In this document: positions 57,041 through 62,542 of the stretch, in pieces
How positions within the stretch are numbered: the stretch's first letter is position 1
Layout of the letters: every line of letters starts with the position of its first letter
Origin: Silvibacterium acidisoli
Lineage (GTDB): Bacteria; Acidobacteriota; Terriglobia; Terriglobales; Acidobacteriaceae
DNA length: 64,000 nucleotides
Assembly: GCA_022870745.1 (NCBI GenBank)
Contig: CP085323.1
Coordinates: 4,092,001-4,156,000 of the forward strand
Reading direction: 5' to 3'
Translations under genes and position numbers: made by a program
The notes under the pieces: generated by a model
Database searches by the model: none
The model's input: only the letters and a program-made list of their open reading frames with translations
What the model was told of the DNA's origin: nothing

Positions 57041-57046
57041 GCCTCA

Positions 57047-57060
57047 GGGCCTGAAGGCCC
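57047..57060. repeat. Hairpin GGGCCT-GA-AGGCCC
   Basis: A 6-bp perfect stem with a GA loop lies just after the permease stop. It has the same CTGAAG tip as the larger hairpin at 57080, suggesting members of one intergenic repeat family. Confidence 0.45.
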
Positions 57061-57079
57061 ATTGTCATTGCCATTAGGT

Positions 57080-57099
57080 GCGCGGGCTGAAGCCCGCGC
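57080..57099. repeat. REP-like hairpin GCGCGGGCT-GA-AGCCCGCGC
   Basis: Nine-bp perfect inverted repeat with a GA tip, flanked by GGT and ACC. Elements of the form GCGGGCTGAAGCCCGC are common between acidobacterial genes. It could act as a bidirectional mRNA-stabilising or terminating hairpin. Confidence 0.6.
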
Positions 57100-57162
57100 C
57101 TACCTTTGTGAGTCAGCTTAGGCATTACCGCCACGTGTAAACCACTCATGGCCAAGTGTGTA

Positions 57163-57195
57163 CCCACCCATGACGAAACGGCCGTCATGGATGGG
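57163..57195. repeat. Long inverted repeat with CCCACCCATGACG arm
   Basis: Arms at 57163-57175 and 57183-57195 match at 12 of 13 positions, with a 7-nt loop. A 14-base relative of the left arm, CCCACCCGTGACGA, occurs at 60189-60202, suggesting a dispersed repeat. It lies 19 bp beyond the bufC-like stop on that gene's transcript and could terminate it. Confidence 0.5.
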
Positions 57196-57213
57196 GCACC
57201 CGCTGCATACCCG

Positions 57214-58098
57214 TTACTTAACCAGCGTGACAAACCAGCCGAGTTCTGCCCAGGTGGCGAAGGCCTGCTGCAGAAAGGCTCCGCGTTCTTCCTCGGGGAT
57301 AGTTGTGTCAGTGAAGGCGTACTCGATGGCTTCTCCCAGGGGCTTGCCGGAGAGCACTGCGTCGAGCAGGCGATAGTCTTCGCGGTGCAGACGCTTGTAG
57401 TAGATCGAGTTGTCGTGGCGATGCACAGCGAGATGAATCTCTTCCGCGGGTAGGGAAGAGACGCGGCGCACATGCCTGCGCTTGCGCTCGATGCTGGCAT
57501 TGTTGCTCGACGAGTCGGCGCTGCCGTTTTCGCTGCGCAGCTCGATGAGCAGGTCGTCGACCGGATAGTTCAGCTCGAGCACGCGCAGGAACGGCTGGAG
57601 TTTGAGAATGGACTGCTCGTTGATCGAGGCCAGCTCGTCGGCATCGATAGGGGGCAGTTGCGCGGAGTCGAAGGCGTCGATGTGCGCCCACTCAAGCCGT
57701 GCCATATCGAGCGCGAGCTGCGGACGCGGTCCCAGGTGTTCCGGATTTTCGTTGAGCCACTTATCGAGCTTCGACCCCAGGTTGCGCAGCGAGAAAGACG
57801 TTGATGGTCGCTCGGTAAGGTAAGCGCGCATCAGCTTATCGAAGCGCGTGCTGCCAATGATCGCCTTCACTCCTGGAAAGTCTTCTTCGAAGCAGGAGTA
57901 GAGCCGGAACCAGTACTGCCGGTTGTAGATCTCGAGGCGATCGAAGGATGTAAGCCGGTCGTTTGGCTTGATCATCGCTTCGGCTTCAGTGCGGTTCAAG
58001 CGGCCATCCGGCTGCTTGCGCGGCATCGTCTCGGCGCGGGTGAGCGGCTGCATGACGGCGGCGGCAACGCGGCGCTGGAGTTCGAGTAGCTCGCTCAT
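57214..58098 (-). CDS. DUF2063/BufC-HvfC family partner of the MNIO enzyme
   Basis: The ATG at 58098 overlaps the bufB-like stop by 4 nt (ATGA). Residues ~1-105 match the DUF2063 'putative DNA-binding' domain: RLEIYNRQYWFRLYSCFEEDFPGVKAIIG. The C-terminal part (~130-294) includes RLEWAHIDAFD and PVDDLLIELRSE and is typical of BufC/HvfC. In related systems the protein presents the precursor peptide to the MNIO enzyme; DNA binding is not supported. It is the last gene of the three-gene cluster. Confidence 0.86.
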   Translation of the reverse strand: MSELLELQRRVAAAVMQPLTRAETMPRKQPDGRLNRTEAEAMIKPNDRLTSFDRLEIYNRQYWFRLYSCFEEDFPGVKAIIGSTRFDKLMRAYLTERPSTSFSLRNLGSKLDKWLNENPEHLGPRPQLALDMARLEWAHIDAFDSAQLPPIDADELASINEQSILKLQPFLRVLELNYPVDDLLIELRSENGSADSSSNNASIERKRRHVRRVSSLPAEEIHLAVHRHDNSIYYKRLHREDYRLLDAVLSGKPLGEAIEYAFTDTTIPEEERGAFLQQAFATWAELGWFVTLVK

Positions 58099-58970
58099 TT
58101 CGCGGCCTCTTCGAGTGCTGGTTCTTCTTTCGTGGGCTTCGCGGCTGCGAGATAGCGATGGGCCTTGAGTGCCTCGGCATGCACTTCTTCGAAGCTGGGG
58201 ATGTTGTCGTCCCACTCGAGCAGCGTTGCTGTGGGGCCGGCGCGTTCGATGGTACGCGCGTAGAGATCCCACACTGGGTCGAGCACGGGATGATCGTGCG
58301 TGTCGAGAATGTACTTCTCGAACTTCGAGTGGCCGGCAATGTGGATCTGTGCGATTCGCTCTGCGGGCACTGAGTTTACGTAGGTAAACGGATCGAAGCT
58401 ATGGTTCTGAGACGAGACATAAATGTTGTTCACGTCGAGCAGGATGCCGCAGTCGGCGCTTTCGACGACTTCGTTGAGGAACTCCCATTCGGTCATCTCG
58501 GAGACGTGATACTCGGCGTAGCTCGAGACGTTTTCGACGGCGATAGGGATCTCAAGATAATCGCGCACATTGCGGATGCGCTCGGCGGTGACCTTTACGG
58601 CCTCCCAGGTATAAGGCATGGGAAGCAGGTCGTGCGTGTAGCGGCCGTCGACGGAGCCCCAGCAGAGATGGTCGCTGAGCCATGGCGTGTTAGTGCGGCG
58701 TACGAGCTGCTTGAGGCGCTTTAAATGCTCGGGATCGGGATCGCTGGCGGAGCCGAAGTACATGGAGACGCCGTGCTGCACCACTTTGTATTGATCGAGA
58801 ATCTGATCGAGGATCTGCAGCGGACGGCCGCCATCGATCATGTAGTTTTCAGAGATGATTTCGAACCAGTCGACGACCGGCTTTTTCGAAAGGATGTGCT
58901 GGTAGTGCGGGATGCGAAGACCGATTCCGACTCCGTACTCGGTGAATCCGTTAAAACGATTGGCAGGCAT
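58095..58970 (-). CDS. DUF692 multinuclear non-heme iron oxidase (MNIO), BufB/HvfB-like
   Basis: The 291-aa TIM-barrel enzyme has clear metal-site motifs: QHGVSMYFG (His66), LSDHLCWG (His101), AVENVSSY (Glu146), LLDVNNIY (Asp179), QIHIAGH (His210, His214), DTHDHP (Asp223, His225/227), LLEWDDNIPS (Glu252). In the family these hold two or three irons and act on cysteines or other residues of a peptide substrate, for example to make oxazolones, thiooxazoles or thioamides. Context (Cys-rich exported peptide upstream, DUF2063 partner downstream) makes it a RiPP maturase. The gene lies 74 bp after the precursor, beyond a hairpin. Confidence 0.9.
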   Translation of the reverse strand: MPANRFNGFTEYGVGIGLRIPHYQHILSKKPVVDWFEIISENYMIDGGRPLQILDQILDQYKVVQHGVSMYFGSASDPDPEHLKRLKQLVRRTNTPWLSDHLCWGSVDGRYTHDLLPMPYTWEAVKVTAERIRNVRDYLEIPIAVENVSSYAEYHVSEMTEWEFLNEVVESADCGILLDVNNIYVSSQNHSFDPFTYVNSVPAERIAQIHIAGHSKFEKYILDTHDHPVLDPVWDLYARTIERAGPTATLLEWDDNIPSFEEVHAEALKAHRYLAAAKPTKEEPALEEAAK

Positions 58971-58994
58971 CGGAAGTTTGACTCCTGTTTGGGG

Positions 58995-59020
58995 AAAAGG
59001 GCCGGCATCGCTGCCGGCCC
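58995..59020 (-). terminator. Terminator/attenuator between precursor and MNIO genes
   Basis: GGGCCGGC (58999-59006) pairs perfectly with GCCGGCCC (59013-59020), 6-nt loop; TTTTCC follows on the minus strand. Partial read-through would give more precursor mRNA than enzyme mRNA, as in many RiPP clusters. Confidence 0.75.
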
Positions 59021-59044
59021 CGGGTTTGTAACAGAAGGGTAGAA

Positions 59045-59347
59045 CTACTTAGGCATTTTGGAGCCGTCAGTTGCGCAGCCGCCCTTGCCCTTGCAGCTGT
59101 TCTTGCCCTTGCAGCCATTGTCGCTGCTCTTGCAGCCGCCCTGGCCCTTGCAATCGTTCTTTCCTTTACAGGAGTGCTTGTCGTCAGCGAAGTTGGACGA
59201 AGCGCTGCTGAACGACGCTTTGCCCGCCTTAACTACGGGGTTGTTTGCCTGCGAGGTCGTGGCAGCCTGCATTGTGGCGGTTCCACCGAGCAGGCCGGAA
59301 ACGGCCGCAGCAACCATAAGGGTCTTCATCGAGTTTGTCATTGTCAT
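59045..59347 (-). CDS. Bufferin-like Cys-rich RiPP precursor (BufA type)
   Basis: The 100-aa product starts at an ATG with AAGGAG upstream; ATGs at 59341 and 59329 are alternatives. A Sec signal peptide spans ~1-28 (hydrophobic core LMVAAAVSGLLGG, cleavage near MQA). A linker of ~30 residues rich in Ser, Ala and Lys follows. The C-terminal core holds six Cys (60, 66, 72, 79, 85, 91), arranged as two near-copies of CKGKNxCKGxGGC separated by SSDNG. The MNIO and DUF2063 genes follow. The peptide is probably modified on its Cys and then exported to bind a soft metal such as copper. It lacks the four-Cys DUF2282 pattern, so the name is by analogy. Confidence 0.83.
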   Translation of the reverse strand: MTMTNSMKTLMVAAAVSGLLGGTATMQAATTSQANNPVVKAGKASFSSASSNFADDKHSCKGKNDCKGQGGCKSSDNGCKGKNSCKGKGGCATDGSKMPK

Positions 59348-59402
59348 TCCTCTCCTTCAGGTCAAGACCCGGCGTAGATGGCCGGCGGGAGACCTGTGCT
59401 GC

Positions 59403-59436
59403 GTACTAGGAGTACATCAGCGGGGTTAAGGTTACA
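59403..59436 (-). promoter_or_regulatory. Candidate regulated promoter of the bufferin cluster
   Basis: On the minus strand TGTAACC (59436-59430) resembles the AAC-containing -35 of ECF sigma factors. A 13-bp palindrome GTACT-AGG-AGTAC (59403-59415) lies 14 bp downstream, near the expected -10. Both sit within 90 bp of the precursor ATG. No ECF sigma gene is in the window. Confidence 0.3.
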
Positions 59437-60350: not shown

Positions 60351-61205
60351 GTGAAGGTCCCTCGCAATTGCAGATTGAGATCGGTATGCGCGGTTGCGAT
60401 GCTGATCGTAGCGTGTGTGATGAGCCGCAGCGCCGCAGCGCAGGACAACTACGAGATCCAGGTATATGGAGCGGATACGATCGCTCCGAAGAGCACGATG
60501 GTGGAGCTGCACAGTAACTTCACCGCCGATGGATCGAGACCTCTGCCCGGCTCTGTCTACGCGGCAGACCGGATGTATCCGACGAACCACGCTCAGCATG
60601 AGACGGTTGAGATTACGCAGGGAATCAACAACTGGTCCGAGGTAGGCTTCTACATCTTTACGAGCTCGCGCAGCGGCCAGGGCGTGCAGTGGGTGGGCGA
60701 TCACATTCGTCCGCGAGTGCGTGTGCCCGACAGCTGGCACTGGCCGCTGGGCGTGAGCCTTTCAACCGAGATAGGCTACCAGCGCCGCGACTTCTCGACC
60801 GATACGTGGACGTGGGAGATTCGTCCGATTGTCGATAAGACGGTTGGCCGCTGGTATTTTGCGGTGAATCCGGCGCTCGAGCGTTCGTTCCATGGGCAGA
60901 CGGTGAGCGAGGGCGTGGGCTTTTCGCCGAGCGCGAAGGTCGGCTACGACTTCACCAAGCAGATCTCGGGCGGCCTGGAGTACTACGCCAACTATGGCAG
61001 GCTTGGCGCATTCGATTCTTTCCACGAGCAGGAACAGCAGTTCTTTCCCGCGGTGGATCTGAATGTGTCTCCGCAATGGGAGATTAACTTCGGTGTCGGA
61101 GTGGGTGTGACGGGAAGCACGGATCACCTGATCGTGAAGGCCATCGTGGGAAGGCACTTCGACTGGTCGCACCATCGGGCCGGAACCTCGGAGAGCACGC
61201 AATAG
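60351..61205 (+). CDS. Exported outer-membrane-barrel-like protein
   Basis: A GTG start yields a signal peptide (~1-30, ending SAAA). The ~254-residue mature protein is rich in alternating hydrophobic strands (VELHSNF, WSEVGFYIF, LSTEIGYQRRDF, WYFAVNPALERSF, SAKVGYDF, GLEYYANYG, INFGVGVGVTG, LIVKAIVGRHFDW) and ends near an aromatic residue, as expected for a beta-barrel. The product spans the outer membrane and might pass metal or solute. It is separated by 2 bp from the multicopper oxidase gene, so the two probably work together. Confidence 0.75.
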   Translation: MKVPRNCRLRSVCAVAMLIVACVMSRSAAAQDNYEIQVYGADTIAPKSTMVELHSNFTADGSRPLPGSVYAADRMYPTNHAQHETVEITQGINNWSEVGFYIFTSSRSGQGVQWVGDHIRPRVRVPDSWHWPLGVSLSTEIGYQRRDFSTDTWTWEIRPIVDKTVGRWYFAVNPALERSFHGQTVSEGVGFSPSAKVGYDFTKQISGGLEYYANYGRLGAFDSFHEQEQQFFPAVDLNVSPQWEINFGVGVGVTGSTDHLIVKAIVGRHFDWSHHRAGTSESTQ

Positions 61206-61207
61206 CC

Positions 61208-62542
61208 ATGCATGTGGACCGGCGAAAATTTCTAGGTATGGCGGCTGCAGCGGCCGCGGCGGCCCGGAGCGGCTGGGCGCAACCGGCGGCAGACGTGAGG
61301 CTGGAGATCGCTCCGTTGAAGCTCGAGATTGCGCCGGGTAAGGTCATTCACACGGTTGCTTATAACGGCAGTGTTCCCGGTCCGCTGATCCGCTGGCCCG
61401 AGGGCAAACCGATTGCGATCGACGTAGTGAATAAGACAGACGCTCCGGAGCTGGTGCATTGGCACGGGCAATGGATTCCTTCGCTGCAGGACGGGGCGAT
61501 GGAAGAAGGTTCGCCGATGATTGCGCCGGGCGGGCAGCTTCGTTATGAGTTCACGCCGCAGCCCGCGGGTTTTCGCTGGTACCACACGCACGGATATGCC
61601 GGGCACGACCTGAAAAAGAGCCTCTACTCGGGGCAGTTCGGTTGCTTCTACGTCGAGCCGAAGCAGGAGCCGGGCGACTTCGACCGCGAAGTCTTTCTAA
61701 CGCTGCACGACTGGAATGCCAGCATGGGCGGCGGCGCCGATGCGTCGATGGACGCAGTCTATGAATACGGGACCATAGGTGACCGGATGCTCGGCCACGG
61801 TGAACCGGTGCGTGTGAAACAGGGCGAGCGGGTGCTCTTTCGGGTGCTGAATGCCAGCGCAACCCTGACGCACTGGCTTGCGTTGGCCGGCCATGAGATG
61901 ACGGTTGTTGCGATGGACGGGAATGCTGTTCCTGCTCCACGGAAGGTGGCGGCTGTCAGGCTGGCCCCGGCGGAACGCGTCGATGTTGTGGTGGCGATGG
62001 ATCATCCCGGAGTGTGGGTGCTGGGCGAGACACGTGAAGACTATCGCAAGGCGGGCACAGGAATCGTTGTGGAGTATGCCGGGCAAACGGGCGAGGCGCG
62101 CTGGCAGGATCCGCCGGAAGCAACCTGGGACTACGGGATATTTGCGAGCGGATTATCGCAACAGAATCATGCCGATACGGTGGTCCCCCTCGTATTCAAG
62201 TCGAAGTTTCGCGGGCATGGCGAGTTCGATTACTGGATGATCAACGGAAAGTCTTTTCCGAAGACAGATGTCATTCCGCTGGTCGCTGGAAAGCGGTATC
62301 GGCTGGCGATGAAAAACATGAGCACGGACGATCACCCCATCCATCTGCATCGGCATTCGTTCGAAGTGACGAGCATCGATGGGAAGGCCATGAGTGGTTT
62401 GCACAAGGATGTGCTGGTGGTGAAGGCGAATGGGACGGCGGAGGTGGACTTCGTTGCTTCGAACCCGGGCGACACGCTCTTCCATTGCCATCAGCAGACA
62501 CACATGGATTTCGGGTTCATGATGCTGTTTCGATACCGGTGA
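61208..62542 (+). CDS. Tat-exported multicopper oxidase
   Basis: The 444-aa protein starts with a twin-arginine leader (DRRKFLG plus an Ala-rich stretch). Cupredoxin copper motifs are complete: HWHG (84-87), WYHTH (125-129), HPIHLHRH (~376-383) and HCHQQTHMDFGFMM (~426-439), giving three type-3/type-2 sites and a type-1 Cys (with Met). The family oxidises substrates with O2 reduction; Tat-exported members often oxidise Cu(I) to less toxic Cu(II). The upstream gene is 2 bp away and the locus neighbours the bufferin cluster and cutC, consistent with copper tolerance. Confidence 0.92.
   Translation: MHVDRRKFLGMAAAAAAAARSGWAQPAADVRLEIAPLKLEIAPGKVIHTVAYNGSVPGPLIRWPEGKPIAIDVVNKTDAPELVHWHGQWIPSLQDGAMEEGSPMIAPGGQLRYEFTPQPAGFRWYHTHGYAGHDLKKSLYSGQFGCFYVEPKQEPGDFDREVFLTLHDWNASMGGGADASMDAVYEYGTIGDRMLGHGEPVRVKQGERVLFRVLNASATLTHWLALAGHEMTVVAMDGNAVPAPRKVAAVRLAPAERVDVVVAMDHPGVWVLGETREDYRKAGTGIVVEYAGQTGEARWQDPPEATWDYGIFASGLSQQNHADTVVPLVFKSKFRGHGEFDYWMINGKSFPKTDVIPLVAGKRYRLAMKNMSTDDHPIHLHRHSFEVTSIDGKAMSGLHKDVLVVKANGTAEVDFVASNPGDTLFHCHQQTHMDFGFMMLFRYR

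Follow-up and report, generated by a model that had tools for sequence, protein, structure and literature searches.

A Bufferin 2-type Gene Cluster of Silvibacterium acidisoli and Its Unlinked doxX-ECF Sigma Factor Pair

The bufABC cluster of Silvibacterium acidisoli most likely (we put the probability at about 80%) specifies a bufferin 2 (Buf2)-type periplasmic copper-buffering peptide, probably thiooxazole-modified and probably under ECF control, in a system split over two loci. The cluster lies in the window, the 64,000-nucleotide stretch of DNA that we analyzed, where a sequence-only reading had proposed a MNIO-based RiPP cluster with an unusual precursor; the MNIO RiPP cluster stands, whereas the precursor is not of a new type. 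Our analysis defines the gene order, family matches and conservation of the cluster, a promoter-like motif and an unlinked doxX-ECF pair, and from these we infer its chemistry, modified sites, export route, metal and regulation.

Results

The cluster comprises the following features.

bufA, 59045-59347, minus strand: 100-aa BufA2-type precursor (open reading frame, NF050166, relatives)
bufB, 58095-58970, minus strand: 291-aa MNIO (DUF692) maturase (NF050167, PF05114, match to 3BWW)
bufC, ATG at 58098 to 57214, minus strand: 294-aa DUF2063 (PME type 1-like) partner (PF09836)
Interval separating bufC from the opposite-strand FtsX-type permease gene, 57041-57213: 173 bases, the doxX position in relatives, with no DoxX remnant
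ECF-sigma-type promoter-like site, 59407-59436, minus strand: TGTAACCTT-N15-CTCCTA, starting 89 nt before the bufA ATG

These coordinates confirm the single minus-strand unit bufA-bufB-bufC that had been proposed, including the 4-nt overlap of the bufC ATG with the bufB stop codon; an alternative bufA start lies at 59341. Our genome collection contains 376 stretches encoding BufA relatives, and the best named ones are from Acidobacteriaceae, chiefly Silvibacterium and its neighbors. Among the best 80 named stretches of the 376, 73 contain a bufC match, and bufB is ∼75–90% identical and located 3' of bufA where the stored stretch includes it. Comparison with five relatives yields dN values of 0.12–0.25 for bufA, 0.07–0.11 for bufB, and 0.21–0.26 for bufC, which for all three genes are well below dS (at least 0.53 in every comparison, and saturated in one). 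Because bufB and bufC are kept in named relatives and dN is well below dS, the sequences argue that the bufABC association is more than chance. A MNIO of some kind occurs in 144 of the 399 genomes of the class.

BufA contains six cysteines in SCKGKNDCKGQGGCKSSDNGCKGKNSCKGKGGC, the number claimed by the sequence-only reading. They lie in two C-KGKN-x-C-KGxGG-C units behind a leader with a conserved AAxxGLLxG that is Sec-like as judged by eye, and an arrangement of six conserved cysteines in Cys-Lys motifs behind a Sec-like signal peptide is likewise seen in relatives. A search against the bufferin families, which that reading had suggested, returned BufA2 (NF050166, 36.1 bits, E = 5.6e-9, below the curated cut-off of 60) as the sole NCBIfam match. 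The scan covered 21 precursors, that of the window among them, and 20 match BufA2 at E ≤ 0.01. The DUF2282 side of that search gave nothing: Pfam contains no match to bufA at E ≤ 1, and so none to PF10048/DUF2282, an identity that we discarded. Buf2 precursors have been described as six-Cys (90%) or twelve-Cys proteins encoded in the order bufABC (PMC12452194), and the Cys-Lys precursor group takes in BufA2 (PMC13097082). We could therefore not uphold the view of the precursor pattern as lying outside the known families, given the below-cut-off BufA2 match and the published Buf2/'Cys-Lys' class, and we rejected a new precursor family on the strength of the BufA2 match.

The MNIO and DUF2063 assignments hold in Pfam, where bufB scores 361 bits with PF05114 (cut-off 25) and bufC 54.3 bits with PF09836/DUF2063 (cut-off 27.2). 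BufB further exceeds the cut-off of the NCBIfam BufB model (NF050167, 349.2 bits, cut-off 310) and can be aligned with 3BWW, an MNIO of known structure (E = 6.7e-52). These two results, with the BufA2 and Pfam matches, sustain the bufferin-like MNIO RiPP reading. Scores for the methanobactin, ApyH, and ChrH types are far below the respective cut-offs, and we dismissed these types. Asp-255 directly follows Asp-254, the residue aligned with the presumed catalytic base. Among 105 relatives, position 255, equated with the published selectivity position by alignment to 3BWW, is Asp in 88, Glu in 14, and Gln in three; 3BWW has Phe there. At the residue adjoining the catalytic Asp-249, Cys-Lys (Buf2) enzymes are reported to have Asp and Lys-Cys enzymes Phe (PMC13097082). 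By this alignment, bufB bears the predicted signature of a Cys-Lys enzyme. Taking the BufA2 match, the BufB score over its cut-off, the Cys-Lys motifs, and Asp-255 together, we assign the precursor by sequence to the ordinary Buf2 type.

The genome (one 5.36-Mb contig) contains a single MNIO and a single DUF2063 match (E ≤ 0.001), both at the buf locus, and BufA is therefore the natural substrate to assign to BufB and BufC. A DUF692 genome-neighborhood search, also suggested earlier, shows that 101 of the 105 class loci have a BufA-like frame upstream of bufB, no more than 1.5 kb away. BufC scores below the cut-off of the HvfC model (NF050145, 46.3 bits, cut-off 142). A PDB search with BufC, either alone or as a 39-sequence profile, gave chance matches only and none to the PME1 structure 3DEE; a putative RRE domain may form the bufC C terminus.

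We compared the cluster with known systems. With bufferin 2 (Buf2, Buf_6/12Cys; NCBIfam BufA2/BufB) and the 'Cys-Lys' captophorins it shares a six-Cys exported precursor with Cys-Lys motifs, the gene order bufABC, a BufB-type MNIO, a DUF2063 partner, and an Asp after the catalytic Asp. Unlike these systems, it lacks an adjoining doxX, has a BufA2 score under the curated cut-off, and is preceded by an ECF-type promoter-like site, whereas PMC12452194 describes sigma genes in Buf1 but not in Buf2 clusters. Bufferin 1 (DUF2282) resembles the window cluster in those sigma-factor genes and in the logic of MNIO, DUF2063 partner, and Sec-type precursor, and differs from it in DUF2282 and in the Cys pattern, window bufA having no Pfam match of any kind. 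The EGKCG-type systems (Oxazolin/HvfABC, fontiphorin, bulbicupramide) follow the same MNIO-DUF2063 logic, and their copper-linked products have been assigned as thiooxazoles (PMC13097082; PMC12538549, tentatively in the latter). They are set apart by their EGKCG (Lys-Cys) repeats, by Phe at the enzyme selectivity site, and by the HvfB model, on which window bufB reaches 259 (cut-off 360).

We surveyed 112 loci of the class and dropped seven with bufB <50% identical, leaving 105 among the matches listed; weaker-scoring and contig-edge MNIO matches were left out, and labels were assigned manually for L021, L168, L184, L190, L191, and L200. The 80 best named loci do not enter the Cys counts because they had been recovered with a six-Cys precursor. 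Six cysteines are found in 56 of the 105 loci, four in 28, twelve in seven, ten in four, five in three (with two odd forms in addition), and three in one; no precursor was found in three loci, and one is ambiguous. The four-Cys precursors (CKGKNDCKGQGGGKHPGKNDCKGKGGC type) are encoded beside BufB/BufC (e.g. L019, L020, L025, L026, L028, L033, L034, L039-L043, and L046) and are not mentioned in the searched text of PMC12452194, whose section 14 treats six- and twelve-Cys forms. They lack both C3 and C4; C4 alone is gone in the five-Cys forms and in three of four ten-Cys forms, and no precursor was seen that has lost C3 while retaining C4. The tree, a quick search with many weak forks, requires at least two changes to the four-Cys form, so that the losses did not arise many times independently. 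One stretch (L079) encodes two six-Cys BufA-like frames. Another type of MNIO found in the class (L018, L172, and L208) is accompanied by precursors of the form CYGIxKAGxNDC...C, which look Buf1/DUF2282-like.

An alignment of 85 Sec-type precursors shows no residue other than Cys in columns C1, C2, C5, and C6 (L171, which has one three-Cys unit, is partly gapped), and Lys follows C2 in 98% and C5 in 96%. In Buf1, the central Cys is modified and the outer pair forms a disulfide (PMC12452194, legend to Fig. 3). From this precedent and the conservation in relatives, C2 and C5 appear the likeliest modified sites. AA-x-x-G-L-L-x-G is near invariant within the signal peptide of the same 85 precursors, which fits preliminary Buf1 results in favor of the signal peptide being part of the BufB-BufC recognition sequence (PMC12452194).

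A branch of 13 loci (L008, L037, L038, L162, L166, L167, L169, L175, L177, L180, L188, L199, and L203) instead has RRxF twin-arginine-like leaders, with 12 or 10 cysteines in 10 of the 13; L021 is not counted because its RRxF sits in an over-long frame. Glu occupies BufB position 255 in 12 of these 13 loci and in just two others, L191 and L198, whose leaders are unreadable. Judged by these leaders, the branch possibly comprises Tat-exported bufferins; Tat or twin-arginine terms are absent from the main text of PMC12452194.

The absence of a DoxX partner at the locus, noted by the sequence-only reading, is borne out. Searching the window by tblastn with DoxX from two relatives returned no match (E ≤ 1e-4), and no DoxX fossil came to light between bufC and the permease gene. 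Of the named loci, 73 include bufC, and the stored sequence of 68 of them extends at least 700 bases beyond it; doxX follows within 1 kb in 67 of these 68 (62 within 300 bases, five more within 1 kb), and the exception, L080, has its DoxX elsewhere in the stretch. Of the 68, 15 (L080 included) have an ECF sigma gene no more than 1 kb past bufC, and 23 more have an ECF match elsewhere in the stretch. No ECF sigma gene follows bufC in the window, where 173 bases lead to the opposite-strand permease gene.

The genome does encode an HvfX-like DoxX ∼0.95 Mb from bufABC (C1:3199236-3199703; 61.6 bits, below the cut-off of 80), its single match at E ≤ 1e-20, and an ECF sigma gene comes next (C1:3198610-3199233). 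Using this DoxX to search 11 genomes at the same threshold, we obtained one match each in the genome itself and in G001, G002, G003, and G006 (beside buf in these last four), and no match in G004, G005, and G037-G040, which have no MNIO either. The nearest tree rows of this doxX are L109, L080 (Granulicella), and L095 (Edaphobacter) rather than Silvibacterium, on weakly supported branches, and the ECF factor is closest to two G003 copies located away from buf. Given these nearest relatives, the pair need not include the original bufD and may represent a replacement rather than a simply moved original. The block around it (L217:3108-4702, equivalent to G000:C1:3198607-3200201) consists of the DoxX, the ECF sigma factor, and a small frame that resembles a membrane protein and ends in a His-rich tail. 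This frame matches no family over cut-off; relatives of it are encoded in many of the named buf stretches, and it may act as a sensor or anti-sigma factor.

The regions upstream of bufA in relatives share the consensus C-TGTAACC-TTT, ∼14 bases, (A)CTC-NN-A. TGTWACC is present in 73 of 166 de-duplicated upstream regions and in 42 of 78 named regions, compared with a mean of 1.2 in shuffles, a type of control that ignores kinship among loci. The motif is found in 34 of 46 regions with an ECF gene in the stretch (13 of 15 with the gene adjacent, 21 of 31 with it elsewhere) versus eight of 32 without one. In the S. acidisoli genome, the strict pattern TGTAACCTTN{14,17}TCNNA matches once, at bufA, and its reversed control also once. 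With the seventh base freed (TGTAACNTTN{13,16}CTCNNA), a change made post hoc, after the near-copy before doxX was known, two sites appear, at bufA and at the doxX-ECF pair (one for the reversed control); the latter lies 25 bases above the doxX ATG. A looser pattern returns 10 rows versus three for its reversed control. Upstream of 26 ECF genes not adjacent to buf, preset patterns occur one, five, and four times (0.00, 0.58, and 0.36 in shuffles), and the post hoc pattern TGTAAC-N16-20-TC in 10 of 26 (0.16 in shuffles). Because of this promoter-motif evidence taken together, we propose with moderate confidence that the distant ECF factor would drive bufA and its own operon.

Two further sequence features were noted. 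Two of the rows given by the looser pattern are CTGTAACCAA...GGTAGTC sites 110–260 nt upstream of two mutually similar membrane-protein genes of the same genome (L215:697-1269 and L216:799-1401), which may be additional targets of this ECF factor or of a different one. The stretch from the promoter-like site to the bufA ATG contains another conserved block (AGGTCTCCCGCCGG ... GCCGGGTCT; window 59348-59410), also present in Silvibacterium-like loci and perhaps a leader hairpin. Our literature search found no report on bufferins in Acidobacteria, and, on Buf2 together with sigma factors or MNIO, nothing beyond PMC12452194 and PMC13097082, the latter with sigma terms in its reference list alone.

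Next to buf, the window encodes a 284-aa frame without a Pfam match and a multicopper oxidase whose N terminus is Tat-like (together 60351-62542). Both are kept beside buf in L055 (Silvibacterium bohemicum) and L073 (Paracidobacterium), the only two among 154 loci (many of which end before this position) with a ∼70% identical oxidase neighbor; L120 has an additional 29% match. On this count we discarded a conserved copper operon that includes the oxidase. Plasmid-borne BufA relatives were sought and not found at E ≤ 1e-3 with the BLAST low-complexity filter on, and plasmid MNIO matches are all <60% identical. BufA2-like loci also occur in metagenome-assembled genomes labeled Methylacidiphilales (L116) and Phycisphaerales (L127), with bufA 52 and 57% identical, respectively, and bufB 75%, which suggests transfer or mis-binning.

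Discussion

In the mechanism that we favor, BufA would be made with a signal peptide, and BufB, helped by BufC, would oxidize some of its cysteines in the cytoplasm. The products would most likely be 5-thiooxazoles at Cys-Lys sites, the middle Cys of each unit being the likeliest target and the outer cysteines forming disulfides or extra ligands; for Buf2 itself, PMC12452194 states that the chemical modifications were not identified. The modified peptide would then be exported to bind copper in the periplasm. Transcription of bufA would most likely depend on the ECF sigma factor encoded with the HvfX-like DoxX 0.95 Mb away.

A cluster of the same kind could serve mainly against a metal or stress other than copper, such as mercury, zinc, or oxidative stress. 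MerC-Buf2 fusions are tied to mercury loci (PMC12452194), copper protection or induction is not firmly shown for an EGKCG relative, on which its authors are hesitant (PMC12538549), and in most relatives no copper gene was seen next to buf, although just 64 of 151 bufB-containing loci reach 3 kb upstream. Bufferin 1, fontiphorin, and bulbicupramide are, however, copper-binding or copper-linked (PMC12452194, PMC13097082, PMC12538549), and the multicopper oxidase (61208-62542) is close by, so that we regard another main metal or stress as unlikely.

We consider it less probable still that bufABC is a decaying remnant which has lost doxX and its regulator and whose peptide is no longer made. The missing local doxX and ECF genes, which set the locus apart from its closest named relatives, would fit such decay, but none of the three frames is broken, dN stays well below dS, the ECF-like promoter site persists, and a doxX-ECF pair with a similar site exists elsewhere in the genome. 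Lowest of all we rank an unmodified, Cys-rich, metal-binding BufA with BufB acting on another peptide. The case for modification is here a sequence-based one, yet BufB is the sole MNIO of the genome, class loci nearly always place a BufA-like frame before bufB, and both enzyme and precursor belong to the Cys-Lys class.

Beyond the copper-buffering assignment, we advance a broader model, to which we give slightly less than even odds. Terriglobia Buf2 would form an ECF-sigma regulon of bufABC and doxX-ECF with a TGTAAC-based promoter, here split 0.95 Mb apart; C1, C2, C5, and C6 would be the functional core, with C2 and C5 as thiooxazole sites; and one branch would be exported by Tat rather than Sec. 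We propose this core because the four-Cys form is common in nature.

With the natural series of Cys losses, one can ask directly which Buf2 cysteines are modified. The Tat-like leaders bear on how premature export is avoided, which PMC12452194 poses as an open question, and a Tat route in one Buf2 branch would, if true, answer how export waits for modification. What had been presented as an odd RiPP is now a member of a widespread copper-buffering family, ordinary in kind and well conserved, and that family gains a candidate regulator and promoter.
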